Of a stretch of DNA of 64,000 nucleotides, positions 1,973 to 12,987 are shown one piece after another; position 1 is the stretch's first letter; each line of letters starts with the position of its first letter. The notes under the pieces are model-generated. The model was not told the origin of the DNA. It did no database searches and saw only the letters and a list, made by a program, of their open reading frames with translations. This stretch comes from Gordonia pseudamarae (GTDB taxonomy: Bacteria; Actinomycetota; Actinomycetes; Mycobacteriales; Mycobacteriaceae): NCBI RefSeq assembly GCF_025273675.1, contig NZ_CP045809.1:1798001-1862000 (forward strand), in the 5' to 3' direction. The translations under genes were made by a program, and so were the position numbers.

Positions 1973-3901
1973 GTGACCGATACGGACGTGATCACCGCAC
2001 CGAAGAGCAGGGCGCGTGCCGGACTTTCCGGCATGGTCCTGACCGAATTGCGTGCTCTGGCCGGTGAGCTGGGCATCAAGGGTACTTCGGGTATGCGCAA
2101 GGGCGACTTGATCGCCGCGATCAAGGAACGTCAGGGCGGAGCAGATCAGCTCACCTTGACCGCTGACGTGCCCAAGAGCGCGGACGAGGCGAAGACGGTG
2201 AAGGCGAAGGCGCCGCGCACGACGCGTGCGACCCGCACGGCGAAGGCGCCCGCGGATGCCGACTCCGTCGCCCCGGTCCGGGGCGACGCCGACAGAACTT
2301 CGGCCGCCACCGACAACGGCACAGGTCAGGAGCCCGCGGTGGAAGCCCGCGGTAGTGATTCCGACCGGCAGGAGCCGGGCCAGAAGGAATCGGGCCAGAA
2401 GGAATCGGGCCGGAACGACGGCGGAAAGGGCGAGACGGCCCGTGCCGACGACCAGCCGTCGGACGGTACGCAGGGCGAGGGTCGAAACAATCGCAATCGC
2501 AACCGTAATCAGCAGGTCCAGAACAACAACCAGCGCAACGAAAACCAGCGCGGGGACAACAACCAGCGCAACGAAAACCAGCGCGGGGAGAACCAGCAGG
2601 GCCGGAATCAGTCAGGTGGTGGCCAGAACGGCCCGCGCGACGACGACGAGGACGGCGGCCGGGGCGGCAGGCGCGGCAGGCGATTCCGCGAGCGCCGTCG
2701 TGGGCGCGACCGCGACTCGTCCCCCTCGGGTGAGCCGCAGATCTCCGATGACGACGTATTGCAGCCGGTCGCGGGCATCCTCGATGTCCTGGACAACTAC
2801 GCGTTCGTGCGTACCTCGGGCTACCTGGCAGGCCAGAACGACGTCTATGTGTCGATGAACTTGGTGCGCCGCTACGGCCTGCGTCGTGGTGACGCAGTCA
2901 CCGGCGCGGTGAAGGTGCCCAAGGACGGCGAGCAGGCCAACCAGCGGCAGAAGTTCAACCCGCTGGCCCGGCTGGATACCGTCAACGGCGGTGACCCCGA
3001 TGCTGCGCGCAAGCGTCCGGAGTTCAACAAGCTCACCCCGCTGTATCCCAATCAGCGGTTGCGTCTGGAAACCACGCCAGATCGGCTCGACACGCGGGTG
3101 ATCGATCTGATCATGCCGATCGGCAAGGGTCAGCGCGCACTGATCGTGTCGCCGCCGAAGGCCGGTAAGACGACGATCCTGCAGGACATCGCCAACGCGA
3201 TCACCACCAACAACCCCGAATGTCACCTGATGGTGGTGCTGGTGGACGAGCGACCCGAAGAGGTCACCGATATGCAGCGCTCGGTGAAGGGTGAGGTCAT
3301 CGCCTCCACCTTCGACCGCCCGCCGTCAGATCACACCTCGGTCGCCGAACTGGCCATCGAACGGGCCAAGCGCCTGGTGGAGCAGGGCAAGGACGTGGTG
3401 GTGCTGCTCGACTCGATCACCCGCCTGGGTCGTGCCTACAACAACGCCTCGCCGGCGTCGGGGCGCATCCTGTCCGGTGGTGTTGATTCGACCGCCCTGT
3501 ACCCGCCCAAGCGGTTCCTGGGCGCGGCCCGCAACATCGAGAACGGTGGTTCGCTCACCATCATCGCCTCCGCGCTGGTGGAAACCGGATCGACCGGCGA
3601 CACCGTCATCTTCGAGGAGTTCAAGGGCACCGGCAACGCCGAGCTCAAACTCGATCGCAAGATCGCCGAACGCCGTGTGTTCCCCGCGGTCGACGTGAAC
3701 CTGTCGAGCACCCGTAAGGACGAGCTGCTGCTCTCGCCCGAGGAGTTCGCGATCGTGCACAAACTGCGTCGCGTGCTCAGCGGATTGGACTCGCAGCAGG
3801 CGATCGACCTGTTGATCTCACAGCTGAAGAAGTCGAAGACCAACATCGAATTCCTGATGCAGGTCCAGTCGAACGCCCCCGGAGCCATGAAAGACGACTG
3901 A
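1973..3901 (+). CDS. rho: Transcription termination factor Rho
   Basis: This is a hexameric RNA-dependent ATPase that terminates transcription. The GTG start at 1973 is preceded by GAAAGGA. Domain order: Rho_N/SAP-like helices (about residues 18-50), then a long charged low-complexity insertion rich in Asn, Gln, Arg, Gly and Glu (about 60-255), the cold-shock-like RNA-binding domain (about 265-315), and the RecA-like motor. The motor has Walker A PPKAGKTTIL (about 394-403) and Walker B VVVLLDSITRLGRA (about 475-488). At 642 residues it is far longer than the roughly 420-residue E. coli protein because of the insertion, as is usual in Actinobacteria. The insertion contains a perfect 33-bp tandem duplication. 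A bidirectional hairpin follows the stop. Confidence 0.97.
   Translation: MTDTDVITAPKSRARAGLSGMVLTELRALAGELGIKGTSGMRKGDLIAAIKERQGGADQLTLTADVPKSADEAKTVKAKAPRTTRATRTAKAPADADSVAPVRGDADRTSAATDNGTGQEPAVEARGSDSDRQEPGQKESGQKESGRNDGGKGETARADDQPSDGTQGEGRNNRNRNRNQQVQNNNQRNENQRGDNNQRNENQRGENQQGRNQSGGGQNGPRDDDEDGGRGGRRGRRFRERRRGRDRDSSPSGEPQISDDDVLQPVAGILDVLDNYAFVRTSGYLAGQNDVYVSMNLVRRYGLRRGDAVTGAVKVPKDGEQANQRQKFNPLARLDTVNGGDPDAARKRPEFNKLTPLYPNQRLRLETTPDRLDTRVIDLIMPIGKGQRALIVSPPKAGKTTILQDIANAITTNNPECHLMVVLVDERPEEVTDMQRSVKGEVIASTFDRPPSDHTSVAELAIERAKRLVEQGKDVVVLLDSITRLGRAYNNASPASGRILSGGVDSTALYPPKRFLGAARNIENGGSLTIIASALVETGSTGDTVIFEEFKGTGNAELKLDRKIAERRVFPAVDVNLSSTRKDELLLSPEEFAIVHKLRRVLSGLDSQQAIDLLISQLKKSKTNIEFLMQVQSNAPGAMKDD
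2524..2589 (+). repeat. Perfect 33-bp tandem duplication inside rho
   Basis: Copies at 2524-2556 and 2557-2589 are identical. The repeat preserves the frame, adding 11 residues of the NNQRNENQRG type to the disordered RNA-binding insertion of Rho. An upstream 15-bp repeat encoding ESGQK/ESGRN (about 2386-2416) shows the same slippage-prone character. Confidence 0.9.
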
Positions 3902-3948: not shown

Positions 3949-4000
3949 ACCACGAACGCCCCCGAAAGCCGGTACTCCGGCGATCGGGGGCGTTCGTGGT
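3949..4000. terminator. Bidirectional hairpin between convergent rho and hmuS-like genes
   Basis: A perfect 17-bp stem (3949-3965 with 3984-4000) encloses an 18-base loop that can itself fold (GCCGG/CCGGC). There is no T-tract on either side, which is common for actinobacterial terminators. It lies 48 bases after the rho stop and 16 bases beyond the stop of the convergent gene, so it can serve both. Confidence 0.75.
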
Positions 4001-4015: not shown

Positions 4016-5050
4016 TCAGGCGGCGAGGTCGCTGATGAGCTGATCCCATGCCTCCGAGGTGATGGGCGCCACCGGCCCGGTCTGGGTGGCCACGAAACTG
4101 CACCGGCCGTGCCGGTCGTACAGCTCGATGGCACCGGTGGGCCCGCACGCACCCTGGGACCAGCTGATCCAGCATTCCTCGACGAGGTTGAAGTTGATCA
4201 TCACGCGGGCGGTGCCCGAAGCGATCACCATCGTCCCGTTGTGCTCTCGGCAGCCGTCGAGAACGGCATGGCGAACCTGTAGGCATCCGGTGGCGACAGC
4301 GCACAGCGTCACCCGCATACCCAACAGCGAGGCGTGTTCGAGGGCGGCGATTACCTGATCCGAGTCGACCCGGACCGCACGGGGTGCTGCCGTGGTGTCG
4401 GGTCTGGTCAGGCGGGCCAGGCGCTGGGTACCGCAGTCGTCGAGCATGGCGTCGAACAGCGCGATCTGATCGTCGTCGGGCACCGACGCCGACGACGGTT
4501 CCGGCATCTGTTCGTCCCGGGATCCGGCGTCGTCTTCACGCGCGGGCACGGCCAGCGAGAGCGCCTCGAAGGCCAGCCGGTCCGACTGTTCGGTCAGATA
4601 TGTCGCGTGGGCGGTGTTGCCGTCGGTGTCGAACAGCCGCAGCGTGGGCGGTACGTGCGCGGCGGGCTCGGTGACCAGGATCTTCCCGAGACGTCGCGGG
4701 TTGATGCGCAACGAGATGTGCGTGTCGTCGAACTTCAGCGGGCCGCCCATCTCGACGGGCGCGCAGTGCGTGCCCACATCGTTCATGATGACCGGGCCCG
4801 CGACGGTCACCCCGACGACGCGGTCGAGCAGCGGGAGCGTGCCGGCCAACTCGGTGACGGGTGTGTCCAGCACCGTCCCGGCAAAACCGGGGGTGGCCAG
4901 CAGCGTGTCCAGATCGCTCGTGGTCTGCCGCGCCCGGCCCGGACAGTAACAGCCCGATGCGTTGGCGCATCCGTGCCCGGTGACGCCGGTGACCTCGTGG
5001 TCGCCGGCGGTACCGGAATCGTCGGGTGTCCTGTCCGGGGAATCGGGCAT
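4016..5050 (-). CDS. HemS/HmuS-family heme-handling (hemin-degrading factor-like) protein
   Basis: The 344-residue length matches the HemS/ChuS/HmuS family, whose cytoplasmic members bind and break down heme. Both family half-repeats can be seen. The first has RLFDTDGNTAHATYLTEQSD, matching the family strand written FFDxxGxAVHKxYLTxxSD. The second has a CLQVRH strand, FNLVEECWISW and AIELYDRHG, matching GCIQIH...FNLHL...LELFD. The N-terminus adds a Cys cluster (Cys28, Cys34, Cys36) not typical of the family. The start is ATG 5050 with AGGAAAG upstream. It is the last gene of an operon with a CysJ-like reductase (39-nt gap) and a GltB-like protein, behind iron boxes. The domain match is from recalled motifs, and the key His/Arg heme ligands were not assigned. 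Confidence 0.65.
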   Translation of the reverse strand: MPDSPDRTPDDSGTAGDHEVTGVTGHGCANASGCYCPGRARQTTSDLDTLLATPGFAGTVLDTPVTELAGTLPLLDRVVGVTVAGPVIMNDVGTHCAPVEMGGPLKFDDTHISLRINPRRLGKILVTEPAAHVPPTLRLFDTDGNTAHATYLTEQSDRLAFEALSLAVPAREDDAGSRDEQMPEPSSASVPDDDQIALFDAMLDDCGTQRLARLTRPDTTAAPRAVRVDSDQVIAALEHASLLGMRVTLCAVATGCLQVRHAVLDGCREHNGTMVIASGTARVMINFNLVEECWISWSQGACGPTGAIELYDRHGRCSFVATQTGPVAPITSEAWDQLISDLAA

Positions 5051-5089
5051 CGTCGCCGCTTTCCTTTCTGGCTCGCGCCTGGAGCCGCG

Positions 5090-7051
5090 TTAGTACACGT
5101 CGCGCAGATAGCGCTTGTCGGATTTAAGCTTGCTGATGTAGGTCTCGGCGTCATTCGCCGAGAGCTTGCCGTGCTGCGCGATGATCTCGTGCAGTGCCTC
5201 ATCGACGTCGTGCGCCATCCGGGTGGCGTCGCCGCACACGTAGACGTGGGCGCCCGATTCCAGCCACGAGAAGAATTCGGCGCCCTTCTCGAGCATCCTG
5301 TTCTGGACGTAGACCTTGTGCTCCTGGTCCCGCGAGAACGCCAGGTCGAGGTGGGTGAGCACGCCGTCGGTGACGAACTGCCCGAACTCGTCGGCGTAAA
5401 TGAAGTCGCTCGAGCGGTGCTGGTCGCCGAAGAACAGCCAGTTGTCGCCGGTCGCGCCACGGGAGACCCGCTCGTGCAGGAACGCGCGGAACGGTGCGAC
5501 ACCGGTGCCGGGGCCGATCATGATGACCTTCGCGTCGTCGGCGGGCAGCCGGAACGACTTGTTGGGGGTGATGTACACACCCACCTGCTCGCCCACGGCC
5601 CGACGATCGGCGAGGTAGGTCGAACACACACCGCCGCGGTCGCGGTCACCGGTGCGGTACCGGACGGCCGCCATGGTGATGTGGACCGATCCGGAGTGCA
5701 CGCGCGGGCTCGAGGAGATCGAGTAGACGCGGGCCGCGAGTGGTTTGAGCTCGGCGATCAGTTCCTCGGGGGTGATCGTCAGATCGGGGTCGACATTGAG
5801 GACGTCGAGGACGTCGCGCCCGTACAGCCACGCGTCGAGTGCCTCGTGGTCGCCGGTGTCGACGAGGTGGCCGATCTCGGGATCGTTGGTGCGTTTGGCG
5901 ATGTAGTCGACGAGGTACTTGGTGGGCACCCCGATCTCGTAGTGGTGGGTGAGTGCCTCGCGCAGGGTGTGTTCGGTCTTGCGATCCTTGATCACCTCGT
6001 CGCCGGTGGCACCGATCCGCTTGAGGATCAGGTCGACGACCGCGGGGTCGTTGACGGCCGCGATGCTGATACCGTCGCCCGGCTCGTAGGCGATCCCGCT
6101 GTCACCGAGCGAGATCTCGATGTGGCGTACCTCTTTGGCCGAGGTGGCGCCGGACAGGACCGAGTTGGTGACGATGGTCGCCGGATAGGGGTTTTTCCGG
6201 CCCCAGTCGGACTTGCCGGTGGCCTTCGCGGGTGCCTTGGGGGCGGAGGCCTCGGTGGCCGGGCTGTCGGACGGTTCCGGGGCGCCGGGTTCGGGAATGA
6301 CGATCTCGGGAGCGGCCGTCTCGGTGACGGCGGTCTCGGGGGCGGGAACCTCGGCGGCCTCGGGTTCGGCGACGGCCGACGCCGGTTCGGCACCGGCGGC
6401 GGCGAGCGCGGGCAGCGCCTCGGCGACCCAGTCGTCGGCCGGTCCCTGATAGTCCACGTCGCAGTCGACGCGGTCGATCACCCGGATAGCGCCCAGTTCG
6501 GCGAGCCGGGCATCGAAGTTCTTGCCGGCCTGGCAGAAACCGTCGTAGATGGAGTCGCCGAGCGCGACGACGCCGAAATAGGTGCCGTCCAGCCGCGGCG
6601 CTCCCGGTCCGGCGACCTCCTGCCAGAAGTCCTCGGCATCGTCGGGCATCTCGCCCTCGCCGTAGGTGGAACACACGATGACCAGGTGGCTCGCGGCGGC
6701 GAGCGTGTCCAGGTCCATATCGCCCATGTCTTTGGTCTCGGCGGCGAAGCCGTGCTCGGCGGCCGCGGTCTCGACCTGCTCGGCGACGTATTCGGCGTTG
6801 CCGGTCTGGGTGCCGTACACCACCAGCAGCGACCGGGGACCGGACGCGGCCGGTTCGGGCTCGGCGGCCTGCGGCTGCGGGGCGGCTGCTCCGGTGGCGA
6901 CGGCAGGGGTGGCCTGCGAGGCCTGGCCGGATGCCGGAACCACCTCCGAAGGCAGTCCGATGCGGGTGTTCAGTCCGGCGAGAAACCCTGCCAGCCAGGC
7001 CTTCTGTTCGCCTGTGAAGGGTACGTCCGCGGGAATGTGGGGCAGTTGCAT
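5090..7051 (-). CDS. CysJ-type NADPH diflavin oxidoreductase
   Basis: This 653-residue protein would move electrons from NADPH through FAD and FMN to a partner. It begins with the CysJ-like helix PFTGEQKAWLAGFLAGL. A flavodoxin domain follows (about 74-220; YGTQTGNAE phosphate loop, STYGEGEMPDDA), then a long Ala/Pro/Glu linker. The FAD domain contains RVYSISSSP, and the NADPH domain contains MIGPGTGVAPFRAFLHER and YVCGDA. It ends in KRYLRDVY, the CysJ-type C-terminus. Usual CysJ partners are siroheme sulfite reductases (CysI), and none is present here. The start ATG at 7051 is one base after the gltB-like stop (7053), so translation must be coupled. The partner could be the GltB-like protein or the HmuS-like protein. 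Confidence 0.85.
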   Translation of the reverse strand: MQLPHIPADVPFTGEQKAWLAGFLAGLNTRIGLPSEVVPASGQASQATPAVATGAAAPQPQAAEPEPAASGPRSLLVVYGTQTGNAEYVAEQVETAAAEHGFAAETKDMGDMDLDTLAAASHLVIVCSTYGEGEMPDDAEDFWQEVAGPGAPRLDGTYFGVVALGDSIYDGFCQAGKNFDARLAELGAIRVIDRVDCDVDYQGPADDWVAEALPALAAAGAEPASAVAEPEAAEVPAPETAVTETAAPEIVIPEPGAPEPSDSPATEASAPKAPAKATGKSDWGRKNPYPATIVTNSVLSGATSAKEVRHIEISLGDSGIAYEPGDGISIAAVNDPAVVDLILKRIGATGDEVIKDRKTEHTLREALTHHYEIGVPTKYLVDYIAKRTNDPEIGHLVDTGDHEALDAWLYGRDVLDVLNVDPDLTITPEELIAELKPLAARVYSISSSPRVHSGSVHITMAAVRYRTGDRDRGGVCSTYLADRRAVGEQVGVYITPNKSFRLPADDAKVIMIGPGTGVAPFRAFLHERVSRGATGDNWLFFGDQHRSSDFIYADEFGQFVTDGVLTHLDLAFSRDQEHKVYVQNRMLEKGAEFFSWLESGAHVYVCGDATRMAHDVDEALHEIIAQHGKLSANDAETYISKLKSDKRYLRDVY

Positions 7052-7052
7052 G

Positions 7053-10000
7053 TCATCCGACCTTCGATTTGGATATGCGATTTGCGTCACTGTGATATAT
7101 ACCGGCCGCAATGGTAGCCGCGACATCCGGCACGGCTCTTGAGGCGAAGAGCTCATCGAAACCGGGCAGTCCGCCGAGCTTGGCACGGTTCACGGCGTCC
7201 TGGTGCAGTACCCAGCCGTACGTTGCCGGAGCATCGATCGACCGGACGTTTCGCAGTCGCAACGCGTTCTTGTAGTCGGTGACGCGTTTGTTGCCGATCA
7301 GGGCCGCGAGTTGCTCGTCGGCATAGCCGCAGAGGATGTCGCGGGCATACTTCTTGACCTTGCCGTTGAGTTCGAAATCCTCGGTCAGCACGAGGTTGCG
7401 CGCGGCCTTGGCCACGGCGGTGTCGTCCGCGGCGGGCGATGTGCGCCGCAGGCGGCGGGTGGCCACCTCGCGGGCGAGTTCGAACACGATGAACGCACCC
7501 AGGACCCGGAACGTCTGTTCGTCGTCGGTATGACCGAACTCCGGGGTCAGACCTTCGGCGACGGGTGCCCGGTGGCGGATCGAGATCTTCAGCTTGTGAA
7601 CCTGGTCTCCGGCGATCGCGGTGGACAGCTCGTCCAGCAGCTCACGCCGGGTCAGCGTCGCCATGATGGTGTCGCTGTCCTGATGCTGCAGGAGGGCCTT
7701 GGGCATCGCGTAGCTGACGTAGTGACGTTCGGTCTCCCAGTTCTGGATGAGCCGGGTGGCCAGCGCCGAGCCGGTGGCCGCCGCGTGCATGTGCAGCAGG
7801 GTGCGGGCGGCGTGGTGATGGAACGGGGCGTACGGGTCGTCGACACCTGTGATGGCGCCCACGATCACCGAATCGGAGCTGATCCGCGAGTCCAGATCGC
7901 AGGCGGGATCGTATTGATAGAGGAAGCCGCCACTCATCCCGTTGGCCAGGCCCTTGCCGAAGCCGCCGAGATTGAACACCGCCCCGTTGGTCATGTACTC
8001 GCAGCCGTACTCGCCGAGACCTTCGACAACGGCCGTGGCACCGGAGTTGCGGACGGCGAACCGGTCCCCGGCCTCGCCCTCGACGAACAGTCGGCCACCG
8101 GTGGCGCCGAACAACGCGAAGTTGCCGACCAGCACGTTGCCGCCGACCGCGGGAGACCCGCCACCTGGGGACCGTACGATCACCGAGCCGCCCGACATCG
8201 ACTTTCCGACACCGTCGTTGCAGGTGCCGGTGTGGACCATCGTCATGCCGTCGGTGCAGAAGGCCGCGTACGAAAGCCCCGCCGATCCGGTGGTGGGCAC
8301 GGTGACGGTGTCGGCGTCCAGGTAGCGGCGGCCGCGGTCGTCGGTGTGTACCGGTCCGAGAGCTGCCGCGTCGGCATCGCCGATCTCGTAGTTGAGGATG
8401 CGTTCGATGTCGATGGCCAGCTGTGCGCCGACGCTCTTGTTGCGGTTGCCCAGATGCACCGGCTGGGTGGTCACCGCCGCCGACCCGCTGTCGAACAGCG
8501 TGTCGCGCACCTGCTCCAGGAGCCGGTCGTCGACCGCGTAGTCGCGTTCGAGGTACACCGGGTCGTCGATGTGCGGGTTGTCGACGACGGCCAGCAGCGC
8601 CCGGCTGCGCAGCGTGCCGACGAGTGCCGGATGGTCGATCACCGACAGCAGGTCGGCGCGTCCGCGCGCGGCCCGCAGGTCGGGCAGCCCGAGGCCGGCG
8701 AGGATCTCACGAACTTCGTGCGCGACGTTGAGCAGATACTGTGCCATCGCGCGCGGGTCGCCCTCGAACACCTCCGGGTTGGTGGTGAGTCCGGCCGGGC
8801 ATTGGACATTGCAGTTCTTGGCGATGACGCAGCCGATCATCATCAGGGCTGCGGTGCCGAACTCGAAGCTGTCGGCGCCGAGCAACGCGGAGGTCACCAC
8901 GTCGTGACCGGTCTGATGCGCCCCTGACGTGCGCAGGACGACCTTGTCGCGCAGACCGTTGGCGCACAGCGCCTGATGCACCTCGGCCAACCCGATCTCT
9001 GCGACTCTGCCCGCGTACCGCAGGCTGGTCACCGACGCGGCGCCGGTGCCCCCGGTGTTGCCGGCCACGTTGATGACGTCGGCGCCGGCTTTGGCCACGC
9101 CCACCGCGATGGTGCCGATGCCCTCGGACGACACCAGTTTCACGATCACCCGTACGCGTGCGGCCTTGCAGTCGTGGATCAGCTGCGCGAGATCCTCGAT
9201 TGAGTAGGTGTCGTGGTGCGGGGGAGGTGAGACCAGCTCGACGCCGGGTGTGCCGCCGCGCGCCGCGGCGATCTCCACGGTGACCTTCGGCGCGGGGAGC
9301 TGTCCGCCCTCACCGGGTTTGGCGCCCTGTCCGATCTTGATCTCGAGTTCTTCGAGCATCGGGTCGGCCAGATAGCCCGACCAGATACCGAACCTGCCCG
9401 AGGCGAACTGTTTGATCCGCGAGGCGCGGATAGTGCCGTATCGCGACAGATGTTCGCCGCCCTCACCGCTGTTGGACAGTCCGCCCACCATGTTGGTGCC
9501 GTGCGCGACCGCCTCGTGGGCGGGGGCGACGAGCGCGCCGTGGCTCATCGCGCCCGATGCGAATGTGGCGGTGATCTCGTGGGCGGCGGATACCTGCTCC
9601 AGCTCGATCGGCGGACCGGCCGGGTGGGCCGCCAGGATGTCACGCAGGGCGCTGGGCCGTTCGGCGCGGGCCTGAGCGATGTCCTCGGTGAACGAGCGGT
9701 AGGCCGGGGTGATCCGGAAGGTGTCGATGGCCTCGTCGGACAGGCGGTCGAAGCCGCTGCCGCCGTATACCGATGCGTCGAGGCCGAATGCGGAGTCCAG
9801 ACCGGCGAGGGTGAGCAGCGGCAGTGAGCCGGACGCGTCGGCGGCCTCGGCCTTCGCAGACACCTTGTCGGCCGACCGGTAGCTCAGCGGCTCGGCTGTG
9901 AGCCCCTCGTAGCGTTTGACCGCCTTGGTGCCGAACGAGTGGCCGGCGCCGCCGGCCCGCTCCTTGAACAGCCCGAGCAGCGGCAGATCTTTGTCGGAGG

Positions 10001-12434
10001 TGAGTACGGAGGCCTCGTCGGTGGCGTGGCGGTGCGCGTCCGCGAGGACCTCGGCGATGGCGTCGAGTCCGACGCCGCCGACCGGTGATAGGGAGCCCGG
10101 GAACCAGCGTCGCAGGTCGTCGTCGGCGGTGTCGAGGAAGTTGGGTTCGAAGAACTCTCCGCCGATGTAGCTCTCGACGGTGCACAGCCCGACCCGGCCC
10201 ATCGTCTTCATCAGTGACTTCTCCGCGGCCTTGGCCCAGTTCCGGAAGGCCTGATCGGGGTCGGGTCGGGCGGCGGCCCGGCGTGCCACCGAATGCGGGT
10301 GCACGGCCGAGGCCCCGAATCCGAGCAGCGTGGCCAGGTGATGCGACGACTCGACCTGTCCGCTGTCCACGACCAGGGAGATCCGCAGGCGCAGCCCCTC
10401 GTCGATGAGCCGCTGGTTGATGGCCGAGACGACGAAGGTCATCGGCAGCGCCGCGTGGTGGGCGTCGACCCCGCGGTCGGTGATGACGGCGATACCGCCG
10501 CGGCGTTTGGCAAACGCCACGATCTCCTCGCAGAGGTGGTCGATGGCGGTGACCAGCTGTGCGCGCCCGCTGTCGGCGGGACCGACCGGGTACAGCGCGG
10601 AGAATGTGCTGACCGGTGTTTCGGCCTGCGCCCCGAGCACCCACAGGTGCTGGGCGGTCAGGATGGGCGAGCGCAGCACGATCTGGCGTGTGCGGATCAG
10701 GGTGTCGTGTCTGCGGTCGCGTCCGGACACCTCGGGCCGGATGCCGAGCGAGACGCGCAGCGTCATGCCGTCGGCCTCCCGGATGCTGTCCAGCGGCGGG
10801 TTGGTGACCTGGGCGAAGCGTTGCGAGAAGTAGCGGGTGATGCTGGGTTCGATGTTGCTCAGCGCGTTGATGGCGTTGCCGAAGCCCATCGCCGACACCA
10901 GTTCGGCGCCCTTGTCGAGCATCGGATCCATGAAGTAGCGGAAGCTCTCCTGATCCAGATAGTACGACCGGAACAGCTGATGGTCGGTCAAGTCGGGTTC
11001 GGTCGGACCGGCTTCGTCTGGATGACTGACTGAGCGGGGAGTTTGCGACCCCGAAGGGGGGAGGAAGACGGAGCCTTGGGGGCCGACCGGGGCCCGACCA
11101 TCAACAGGGCCCGGTTCGAATTCGGGCAGATCGTCGAGGTCCACCTTGGCTGCGGCCAGCAGTGCCGGGTAGTCGGCGGCGGCGGCGAGCTTCTCGTACG
11201 CGTCGTCGGTGGTGTAGGTGCGATGTTCGCGGTGGTCGTAGAAGATCATCCCGCCCGCCGATACCCGGCCCCGCGCGATCACCGAATCCGGGTGCACGTC
11301 GATCTGCCCGGCCTCGGAGAACGCGCACAGGTACTTGTTGGTCTCCAGGGTGCGCAGCGGTCGCAGCCCCAGCCGGTCGAGGCGGGCACCGATGATCGAT
11401 CCGTTGCCGAAGACGACCGCCGCAGGTCCGTCGTTCTTTTCCTCGTACAGCGAGAAGTATTCGAACATCGCCCGCACGCGGGGCGAGAGCGAGCTGTCGT
11501 TCTCCCAGGCCGGAGGCATCATCGAGACGATTGCCGTGACCAGGTCGAGACCGTCCTCGGTGACCCGGGTGGCGACGGTCTGGTCGAGCCGTGAACTGTC
11601 GGACTGACCGGGCGGCCGGACGATCCGGCGCCGCTGCGCGGCCGCGGCGGTGACCTGCGCGATGCGGTTCTTCTTGTCGGTGTTGAGTTCACCGTTGTGG
11701 GCCAGGAACCGGAAGGGCTGGGCCATCGTCGGATGCGGGTCCGTGTTGGTGGAGAACCGCGTGTGGAAGAACAGGGTGTGCACCGCGTGGTCCGGGTCGG
11801 TCAGGTCGGCGAAGTAGCCGATCACCTCGGGGGAGGAGAGCCGGCCCTTGAGGACCTGGGTCCGCGCGGACAGCGACAGCGGATACAGCCCGGCCAGTGC
11901 GGGATCGGTGTAGCCGACGGCCTCGATGTGCAGCAGCGCCTGCTGAACCAGCAGGTCGAGTTCGGCGGGTCCGGGCGTCGGTTCGGGTGCGGCGAACACC
12001 CATTGCCGGATCGGCAGCTGGTGCCGGACCGCGGCGGCGCGCAAAGCCGAATTGTTCACCGGCACATCACGAACTGCAAGAACCGAGAAGCCGCGCTCGG
12101 TCATCGTGGACTCGATGAGGTGCTCGGCGCGGTCCTGCGCACCTGCCGGGAGGAAGAAGTTTCCGACGCAGAACCTGCCGAGCGACAGGTCCGGCATGCC
12201 GGTGATCTTGCGGAAGAAGGCCTGTGAGAGGTCCATCGAGACACCGCCGCCGTCACCGACTCCCTCGGCCGACATGCCGCCGCGGTGGGGGACCGAGCAC
12301 AGTGCCTCGGATGCCTTGACGATGACGTCGTGGCTCTGCACGCCGTCCTTGCGGGTGATGAACCCGACGCCGCAACTGCTCTTCTCGTCGCTGGGGTGCC
12401 ACAGCAGGTCCTGCGTGCGCTGTTCGCGCTTCAT
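7053..12434 (-). CDS. gltB: Glutamate synthase large-subunit-like protein with C-terminal extension
   Basis: The domain order is that of the GOGAT large subunit: class II glutamine amidotransferase with catalytic Cys21 after a 20-residue propeptide (SSCGVGF), a central domain, an FMN/Fe-S synthase barrel (ASGAMSHGAL near 940; GAKPGEGGQLP near 1035), and a GXGXG helix domain. The Fe-S cysteines are spaced C-x5-C-x3-C (CVIAKNCNVQC, about 1200), one residue shorter in the last gap than the C-x5-C-x4-C usual for GltB. The 1793 residues exceed the usual 1500 or so, and about 220 extra residues follow the GXGXG domain. No gltD lies nearby; a CysJ-type reductase follows directly. AGGAG precedes the ATG, and tandem iron boxes overlap the promoter. 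It may be a true GOGAT with an unusual electron donor or a specialised paralogue. Confidence 0.85.
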   Translation of the reverse strand: MKREQRTQDLLWHPSDEKSSCGVGFITRKDGVQSHDVIVKASEALCSVPHRGGMSAEGVGDGGGVSMDLSQAFFRKITGMPDLSLGRFCVGNFFLPAGAQDRAEHLIESTMTERGFSVLAVRDVPVNNSALRAAAVRHQLPIRQWVFAAPEPTPGPAELDLLVQQALLHIEAVGYTDPALAGLYPLSLSARTQVLKGRLSSPEVIGYFADLTDPDHAVHTLFFHTRFSTNTDPHPTMAQPFRFLAHNGELNTDKKNRIAQVTAAAAQRRRIVRPPGQSDSSRLDQTVATRVTEDGLDLVTAIVSMMPPAWENDSSLSPRVRAMFEYFSLYEEKNDGPAAVVFGNGSIIGARLDRLGLRPLRTLETNKYLCAFSEAGQIDVHPDSVIARGRVSAGGMIFYDHREHRTYTTDDAYEKLAAAADYPALLAAAKVDLDDLPEFEPGPVDGRAPVGPQGSVFLPPSGSQTPRSVSHPDEAGPTEPDLTDHQLFRSYYLDQESFRYFMDPMLDKGAELVSAMGFGNAINALSNIEPSITRYFSQRFAQVTNPPLDSIREADGMTLRVSLGIRPEVSGRDRRHDTLIRTRQIVLRSPILTAQHLWVLGAQAETPVSTFSALYPVGPADSGRAQLVTAIDHLCEEIVAFAKRRGGIAVITDRGVDAHHAALPMTFVVSAINQRLIDEGLRLRISLVVDSGQVESSHHLATLLGFGASAVHPHSVARRAAARPDPDQAFRNWAKAAEKSLMKTMGRVGLCTVESYIGGEFFEPNFLDTADDDLRRWFPGSLSPVGGVGLDAIAEVLADAHRHATDEASVLTSDKDLPLLGLFKERAGGAGHSFGTKAVKRYEGLTAEPLSYRSADKVSAKAEAADASGSLPLLTLAGLDSAFGLDASVYGGSGFDRLSDEAIDTFRITPAYRSFTEDIAQARAERPSALRDILAAHPAGPPIELEQVSAAHEITATFASGAMSHGALVAPAHEAVAHGTNMVGGLSNSGEGGEHLSRYGTIRASRIKQFASGRFGIWSGYLADPMLEELEIKIGQGAKPGEGGQLPAPKVTVEIAAARGGTPGVELVSPPPHHDTYSIEDLAQLIHDCKAARVRVIVKLVSSEGIGTIAVGVAKAGADVINVAGNTGGTGAASVTSLRYAGRVAEIGLAEVHQALCANGLRDKVVLRTSGAHQTGHDVVTSALLGADSFEFGTAALMMIGCVIAKNCNVQCPAGLTTNPEVFEGDPRAMAQYLLNVAHEVREILAGLGLPDLRAARGRADLLSVIDHPALVGTLRSRALLAVVDNPHIDDPVYLERDYAVDDRLLEQVRDTLFDSGSAAVTTQPVHLGNRNKSVGAQLAIDIERILNYEIGDADAAALGPVHTDDRGRRYLDADTVTVPTTGSAGLSYAAFCTDGMTMVHTGTCNDGVGKSMSGGSVIVRSPGGGSPAVGGNVLVGNFALFGATGGRLFVEGEAGDRFAVRNSGATAVVEGLGEYGCEYMTNGAVFNLGGFGKGLANGMSGGFLYQYDPACDLDSRISSDSVIVGAITGVDDPYAPFHHHAARTLLHMHAAATGSALATRLIQNWETERHYVSYAMPKALLQHQDSDTIMATLTRRELLDELSTAIAGDQVHKLKISIRHRAPVAEGLTPEFGHTDDEQTFRVLGAFIVFELAREVATRRLRRTSPAADDTAVAKAARNLVLTEDFELNGKVKKYARDILCGYADEQLAALIGNKRVTDYKNALRLRNVRSIDAPATYGWVLHQDAVNRAKLGGLPGFDELFASRAVPDVAATIAAGIYHSDANRISKSKVG

Positions 12435-12501
12435 ACGTCTCCTGTATCGAGCCGACCGAATGCTTGATACGCCCCTGCGACGTTGAAGTGGCGTCCGATC
12501 A

Positions 12502-12507
12502 CTATAG
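12502..12507 (-). promoter_or_regulatory. Candidate -10 element of the gltB-like operon
   Basis: Read on the minus strand this is TATAGT, a good -10 hexamer. It would place the transcript start near 12495, about 60 bases before the ATG at 12434. The adjoining iron boxes cover the -10 to -35 region. Confidence 0.45.
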
Positions 12508-12522
12508 CTAAGCCAATCCTAA
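12504..12522. promoter_or_regulatory. IdeR/DtxR-type iron box 1
   Basis: The plus-strand sequence ATAGCTAAGCCAATCCTAA matches 15 of 19 positions of the IdeR/DtxR consensus TWAGGTWAGSCTWACCTWA, including the central core. It overlaps the -10 element of the minus-strand operon. IdeR/DtxR with ferrous iron normally represses such promoters. Scoring was by hand. Confidence 0.65.
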
Positions 12523-12523
12523 A

Positions 12524-12542
12524 TTAACTAAGCTATACCTTT
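12524..12542. promoter_or_regulatory. IdeR/DtxR-type iron box 2
   Basis: The plus-strand sequence TTAACTAAGCTATACCTTT matches 14 of 19 consensus positions. Its centre is 20 bp from the centre of box 1, so two dimers could bind on the same helix face region. It is placed over or upstream of the -35 region of the gltB-like operon. Confidence 0.6.
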
Positions 12543-12759: not shown

Positions 12760-12987
12760 ATGAAAAAGGGTATCCACCCCGAATACGTCGCCACCACCGT
12801 CGTGTGTGGTTGCGGCAACACGTTCGAGACCCGGAGCACCGCCTCGAGCGGCCGGATCACCGTCGAGGTCTGCTCGCAGTGCCACCCGTTCTACACGGGC
12901 AAGCAGAAGATCCTCGACACCGGCGGCCGTGTCGCGCGCTTCGAGAAGCGCTACGGCAAGCGGAACAAGAGCGCAGCCTCCAGCTAG
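12760..12987 (+). CDS. rpmE: 50S ribosomal protein L31, zinc-binding type
   Basis: This 75-residue protein is a component of the large ribosomal subunit at the central protuberance. It begins MKKGIHPEY and carries the four zinc ligands Cys16, Cys18, Cys38 and Cys41 (CGC and CSQC), so it is the C+ form. The start ATG is preceded by AGAGGA. A strong intrinsic terminator follows directly. In M. tuberculosis rpmE directly follows rho; here 8.5 kb of minus-strand genes separate them. Confidence 0.97.

Follow-up and report, generated by a model that had tools for sequence, protein, structure and literature searches.

We analysed a group of three genes in Gordonia pseudamarae which combines a GltB-like protein, a relative of the large subunit of glutamate synthase (GltS), with a CysJ-type reductase and a HemS-like protein. 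The window, i.e. the whole stretch of DNA under analysis, comprises 64,000 nt of the forward strand (NZ_CP045809.1, positions 1,798,001-1,862,000). The three genes are arranged in the above order from 12434 to 4016 on the minus strand and form a tight operon. The stop of gltB ends at 7053 and the ATG of cysJ starts at 7051, leaving 1 base between them, and 39 bases separate cysJ from hemS. These coordinates agree with a preliminary description of the stretch made from its letters alone, and so does the placement of the block between rho and rpmE: on one side we find a plus-strand gene at 1973-3901 which we take to be rho, on the other a plus-strand gene starting at 12760 which is presumably RpmE-like, so the operon sits between the two. 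The features of the locus are listed in Table 1. The inverted repeat between the convergent rho and HemS-like genes is a probable terminator shared by both.

Table 1. Position, strand and supporting evidence of the features of the operon in the window.
Feature	Position	Strand	Evidence
gltB-like gene, first in operon; GltS large-subunit subfamily with C-terminal extension	7053..12434	-	1793 aa; Pfam, PDB relatives 7mfm, 6s6s and 1ea0, tree
Codon of Cys21, predicted N-terminal glutaminase nucleophile	12372..12374	-	Alignment with relatives having a 5' end and with PDB GltS
Cluster loop C-x5-C-x3-C-P	8799..8831	-	Three Cys invariant in 39 rows of alignment A4
Subfamily-specific C-terminal extension, 194 aa (~195), after the GXGXG domain	7101..7682	-	Alignment A1
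CysJ-type NADPH diflavin reductase	5090..7051	-	653 aa; flavodoxin, FAD and NADPH domains, PDB 6efv
HemS-like gene with HemS/ChuX repeats	4016..5050	-	344 aa; PF05171 above cut-off, weak PDB match to HemS
N-terminal Cys motif (Cys28, Cys34, Cys36) of the HemS-like protein	4943..4969	-	Columns Cys in 39, 47 and 47 of 54 rows
IdeR/DtxR-like iron box 1	12504..12522	-	14/19 strict; best match in 64 kb; kept upstream in relatives
Second, weaker box-like site	12524..12542	-	11/19 strict; weak alone
Perfect inverted repeat between convergent rho and HemS-like gene	3950..3999	.	Direct sequence reading

The GltB-like protein shows the full set of Pfam domains (GATase_2, Glu_syn_central, Glu_synthase and GXGXG). 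Its class II glutaminase domain (PF00310, 277 bits) carries an N-terminal Cys, the residue that is catalytic in the glutaminase family, and relatives with a 5' end have the motif S[SA]CGVGF around it. The flavin mononucleotide (FMN)/2-oxoglutarate synthase domain (PF01645, 345.5 bits) aligns to 1ea0, 7mfm and 1llw. Domain order, N-terminal nucleophile Cys, FMN core and the three cluster Cys are shared with GltBD from Azospirillum and Escherichia coli. Unlike GltBD, however, the locus has no adjacent GltD; instead it has a CysJ-type partner, a C-terminal extension, a shorter cluster loop and an iron box. The three Cys, candidate ligands of a [3Fe-4S] cluster, are retained, but across 39 aligned members the loop spacing is C-x5-C-x3-C, one residue shorter than the C-x5-C-x4-C of ordinary GltBs and PDB GltS. 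The extension has a mean column identity of 63% (16 members in alignment A1), and the matches of the two ordinary GltBs of the host genome stop short of it. Identity to the window protein over the C-terminal half is 63-79% for 38 relatives from two phyla and 45-47% for the two ordinary GltBs of the host. In the tree the block GltBs (39) are split from the ordinary GltBs (21) with support 100/100, where all 21 ordinary rows come from the window's own family and two further proteins, L174 and the second GltB of L151, were not picked up. Ahead of the FMN domain most aligned relatives carry a further ~90 aa, which are absent from the window protein, L056 and L057; two rows of that alignment (ord_L003 and ord_L006) are misread frames and were ignored.

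These peculiarities could mean that the GltB-like protein has left the housekeeping role of a glutamate synthase and now reduces or amidates some other substrate, with electrons from the same donor. The long extension, which only the subfamily has, the shortened loop and the separate clade would fit such a change, as would a score below the cut-off of the NCBIfam GltB equivalog PRK11750 (977.1 vs 1047 bits). There would also be room for it, as the host genome encodes two ordinary full-length GltBs of 1539 and 1561 aa, each with gltD directly downstream. However, the glutaminase Cys and the FMN/2-oxoglutarate core are conserved relative to the solved glutamate synthases, and we regard a change of substrate as quite unlikely.

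For the CysJ-type protein we detected Flavodoxin_1, FAD_binding_1 and NAD_binding_1 (FAD, flavin adenine dinucleotide). The order flavodoxin-FAD-NADPH is that of the sulfite reductase subunit CysJ, and the best PDB match is a sulfite reductase flavoprotein (6efv), presumably from E. coli. Unlike CysJ, the protein stays below the cut-off of the NCBIfam cysJ equivalog (589.8 vs 668.15 bits) and the operon contains no CysI, the sulfite reductase hemoprotein. Four NIR_SIR matches, of CysI or other type, are found elsewhere in the host genome.

The HemS-like protein matches PF05171 in two stretches (42.9 bits vs a cut-off of 24). It is fast evolving, and its PDB match to HemS is weak. We aligned 54 rows, among them at least one duplicate (L066 and L080). 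Like HemS, HmuS and ChuS the protein has the PF05171 repeats and an invariant Arg (54/54 rows) that corresponds to R102 of Yersinia HemS by alignment offset; passages of PMC11773379 treat the roles of R102 and H196 in that protein. Unlike them it lacks the axial His: the column that best matches H196 holds Leu198 in the window and His in 26/54 rows, mainly mycobacterial and proteobacterial ones. A phmmer alignment alone places H196 opposite a nearby Cys, so the register is uncertain in this divergent family, and the window residue is not His either way. Another difference is the N-terminal Cys motif, for which a further count gave at least 42 of the 54 rows, the starts of L058, L059, L073 and L074 being wrongly extended. 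A link between this motif and GltB was considered and rejected: the motif is absent in two loci without GltB (L067 and L068) but also in two full-block Gordonia loci (L081 and L085). By eye we recognised no heme transporter among the neighbour genes of the operon. The HemS-like protein is perhaps a handler of heme or another tetrapyrrole and an optional companion of the other two. The preliminary description had also stated that the usual partners of all three proteins are missing. This is correct for the operon, but not for the genome, where both gltD genes stand beside their own gltB and a heme oxygenase family match is present.

The cassette is conserved across Actinobacteria, where the preliminary description had suggested looking for it, and into Proteobacteria, with the HemS-like gene being optional. 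Among 151 genomes of the window's family 16 encode a HemS-like protein, and we inspected all 16 regions. The order GltB-CysJ-HemS occurs in 12 of them. Two regions from the same genus (L067 and L068) lack GltB; still adjoining rho, they retain HemS and, of the reductase, just the FAD/NADPH half. In L068 the rpmE-like gene lies on the opposite side from rho. L071 has HemS with a reductase tail. A relic at L075:8522-9616, consisting of a central GltB fragment and a HemS tail, suggests that the block was lost there; its neighbours read like sulfate-assimilation genes which we take to be cysD and cysN. In one of the 12, an otherwise complete block from Rhodococcus (L069:5643-10167), GltB is spread over two frames, which reflects either a sequencing error or decay. 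Four more family genomes contain GltB-CysJ without HemS (L060, L061, L062 and, on two contigs, L064/L065), and in a 61-genome sample of the family CysJ directly follows GltB in 10/10 genomes that have the subfamily.

To extend the comparison we scanned a named collection with the C-terminal extension of GltB, which returned 236 relatives, and kept the best 80. These span Gordonia, Rhodococcus, Mycobacterium and kin, Nocardia, Rhodobacterales, Rhizobiales, Hyphomicrobium, Labrenzia and Corticibacter, that is, Actinobacteria, Alphaproteobacteria and one member of the Comamonadaceae. Within these best 80 of 236 loci CysJ immediately follows GltB in all cases (80/80) and a HemS-like gene is present in 44/80; the latter count may err either way, as L106 has no Pfam family match at 0.001, and the proteobacterial HemS calls rest on a model built from the rows of this study (52 to 174 bits). 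Among 397 genomes of the order, 10 have the subfamily GltB. The HemS model gave 11 matches there, of which 6 are confident and all lie within those 10 genomes; the other five are weak (E 5e-6 or worse). The cassette is therefore patchy yet cohesive. In four additional loci the reductase lies beside GltB in 4/4 and HemS is present in 2/4, although L112 and L125 probably represent the same genomes as two of these. The family and named sets overlap (G038/L078, G141/L080, G083/L095, G097/L096, G353/L112 and G418/L125) and hence the counts are not additive.

The reductases were placed in a quick tree, from which 17 of the 80 named loci including L076 had been omitted beforehand as near copies. The row closest to the window is Gordonia amarae NBRC 15530 (96% identity over 378 columns), and the reductase half of L067/L068 branches beside the window's with support 91. 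Extra reductase halves occur near the block in L057, L081 and L085, and in one genome other than L067 and L068 such a half stands directly 3' of HemS. At L136:12389-12838, and also in L120, L140, L145 and L146, the GltB-CysJ pair is followed by a small, separate gene for a flavodoxin-like protein; these loci are some Rhodococcus and one metagenome-assembled genome, and the Pfam check covers L136 only. In Corticibacter populi (L151:14648-19636) a second GltB gene, ordinary-looking by eye, lies ~2 kb downstream of the block.

We then surveyed the flanks of the 80 loci for iron genes (TonB receptor, FecCD, binding protein, siderophore-interacting protein, ferritin) and found them in 11/80. The actinobacterial loci account for 2/30 with HemS and 0/16 without, the proteobacterial loci for 6/14 with HemS and 3/20 without. 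The search covered genes similar to eight chosen neighbours; as it has no matched background, the support it lends is weak. At L058:585-3897 the block lies beside an MFS carrier, a HemD/response-regulator fusion and CbiX, and this neighbourhood resembles the mycobacterial narK3-nnaR-sirB nitrate set; a narK-nnaR-sirB set is named in a passage of PMC11162112.

Upstream of the operon the preliminary description had placed two adjacent IdeR/DtxR-like boxes scoring 15/19 and 14/19. Both sites are there, but relative to the strict consensus TTAGGTTAGSCTAACCTAA they reach only 14 and 11; the higher values are obtained by a hand count that admits A/T-degenerate positions. A score of 14 or above was reached by 6/2000 shuffles of the upstream 300 bp. 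In a matrix scan the site at 12504 ranks first in the window with 22.0 bits, followed by a runner-up with 12.5 bits. The matrix was built from six sites of the host genome picked by consensus, which themselves score 24.2 to 29.3 bits. Three DtxR-family matches are found in the host genome, and the regions of its two ordinary gltB-gltD pairs contain no site above 12/19 in the stretch taken.

The box is retained in relatives. All 12 full family blocks, each of them HemS-bearing, have a box of 13-16/19 upstream. For the two GltB-less loci (L067 and L068) we observed 11 and 12/19, and for the four HemS-less family loci 10, 11, 12 and 13/19. A box of at least 13/19 is present in 33/40 named actinobacterial loci, compared to 67/3000 random windows (~2%), a background which may itself include some true sites. 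The count took 40 of the 46 actinobacterial loci, as six without a readable gltB start were left out. The family loci had suggested that the box is tied to HemS only; the named loci contradict this, with 25/28 having the box in the presence of HemS and 8/12 in its absence. Three of the four additional loci were scanned as well and gave boxes of 15 or 16. In Actinobacteria the operon is probably controlled by iron, with the box as the predicted operator of IdeR.

For the Proteobacteria we scanned 33 of the 34 loci (L117 has no readable start) with operator patterns for RirA, the IRO core, Irr, Fur and DtxR. Shuffle fractions of 0.05 or below were obtained for 0, 2, 0, 7 and 1 loci, respectively. 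The seven Fur-like matches all come from a single stretch that closely related Agrobacterium/Rhizobium promoters have in common, and the IRO-like matches are single sites in L123 and L151. We thus observed no generally recurring site for any of these patterns, and iron control is supported for Actinobacteria only. A different inverted repeat, TATGTnAn..TGACATA, recurs upstream of gltB in proteobacterial block promoters (L144, L150, L152 and L155) and is possibly the operator of another regulator. The proteobacterial result would suit an ordinary glutamate synthase paralogue that answers to the nitrogen or redox state and for which the iron boxes are incidental, and so would the nitrate-like neighbourhood of L058. 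However, the conservation of the box in Actinobacteria is far over background, which makes this explanation very unlikely.

The preliminary description had interpreted the operon as an iron-starvation unit whose diflavin reductase feeds electrons to heme breakdown, to the GltB-like protein or to both. Our searches of open-licence papers listed no report of the operon. With gene order and actinobacterial iron box both conserved, an iron-starvation unit with this donor is still the best reading, with iron control supported for Actinobacteria. With regard to the acceptor, GltB is better supported, because the GltB-CysJ pair is constant across the best 80 loci and HemS is not. Heme breakdown is weaker, because the window protein does not hold the axial His at the aligned position and because a heme oxygenase family gene is present in the genome. 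We consider it fairly probable that the first two genes encode an iron-economical NADPH glutamate synthase that uses the CysJ-type protein instead of GltD, under the control of IdeR in Actinobacteria.

In such an enzyme glutamine would be hydrolysed at the N-terminal Cys domain of the GltB-like protein and the ammonia channelled to the FMN site, where 2-iminoglutarate would be reduced to glutamate. We infer that the electrons would pass from NADPH to the FAD and on to the FMN of the CysJ-type protein and from there to GltB. The flavodoxin domain would dock where GltD would otherwise bind, and docking and tuning are the likely roles of the C-terminal extension and of the changed cluster loop. 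In plentiful iron IdeR would repress the operon; in scarce iron the synthase would be made without the two [4Fe-4S] clusters of GltD. The HemS-like protein would be an optional partner, perhaps taking electrons from the FAD/NADPH half. According to passages of PMC8097209, GltD-like subunits hold two [4Fe-4S] clusters and flavodoxin is able to substitute for ferredoxin under iron depletion.

There are partial parallels to this arrangement. Like the ferredoxin-dependent glutamate synthases of cyanobacteria and plastids, the GltB-like protein would receive its electrons from a carrier domain and not from GltD. Unlike them it scores closer to the NADPH-type enzymes, and the ferredoxin-type match is interrupted at chain residues 914-934, which are missing from the window protein. 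NasN is described in parts of PMC7816997 and PMC11162112 as an NADPH-driven diflavin nitrate reductase of mycobacteria. The proposed GltB-CysJ pair would likewise join an Fe-S enzyme of nitrogen assimilation to an NADPH-fed diflavin module, but NasN is a molybdoenzyme in one fused chain, whereas the GltB-like and CysJ-type proteins are encoded by two separate genes. The host genome itself contains a fusion of this kind (L175:2342-7057; C1 near 4068341), a protein of 1571 aa in which a molybdopterin oxidoreductase is joined to flavodoxin, FAD and NADPH domains and which adjoins a NIR_SIR gene. Since it resembles NasN, a CysJ-type module probably drives another Fe-S enzyme of nitrogen assimilation in the same host.

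Several observations speak against the iron-economical synthase. In three of the four family loci without HemS the site is weak or absent (10, 11 and 12/19), 7/40 named actinobacterial loci top out at 12/19, and the proteobacterial loci have no general iron site. The two gltD of the host could supply the window GltB in trans. As the three cluster Cys are still present in GltB, the saving of iron would be partial. Finally, L067 and L068 keep the FAD/NADPH half and the HemS-like gene without GltB, so the reductase has a client besides GltB.

The last point leads to the possibility that the reductase chiefly supplies the HemS-like protein with electrons for opening heme when iron is scarce, with GltB as a passenger or using GltD from elsewhere. 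The extra reductase half right after HemS in another genome would agree with this, as would the co-occurrence of 6/6 confident HemS-like matches with GltB among the 397 genomes and the siderophore genes that adjoin some blocks. L067 and L068 are sister rows, though, and probably represent one event; moreover, their boxes are weak. The HemS-like gene is absent from 36/80 loci compared to 0/80 for CysJ, the axial His is replaced by Leu in the window and is another residue than His in 28/54 rows, and a heme oxygenase family gene is present in the host. Taken together, we judge heme opening as the chief role to be improbable.

The two GltB-less genomes also make it conceivable that both proteins are served. 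The retention of the pair in them, although probably by one evolutionary event, suggests a division of labour in which the flavodoxin domain supplies GltB and the FAD/NADPH half is able to supply the HemS-like protein. In its widest form the proposal would define a third donor class of glutamate synthase, a CysJ-type flavodoxin domain beside the GltD and ferredoxin types, made in actinobacterial iron starvation, with one reductase serving GltB through its FMN domain and the HemS-like protein through its FAD/NADPH half, so that a single NADPH input would supply both nitrogen assimilation and the recovery of heme iron. As a whole we think this unlikely.

Glutamate synthase is a main route by which ammonia enters amino acids, and in its usual bacterial form it is iron-heavy. 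An iron-free flavoprotein in place of GltD would spare eight irons per unit by simple arithmetic. If the proposed role is true, it would give a function to many genes which probably carry gltB and cysJ annotations, judging by the families that they match, and it would show bacteria shielding nitrogen assimilation in iron shortage, akin to the use of flavodoxin for ferredoxin.

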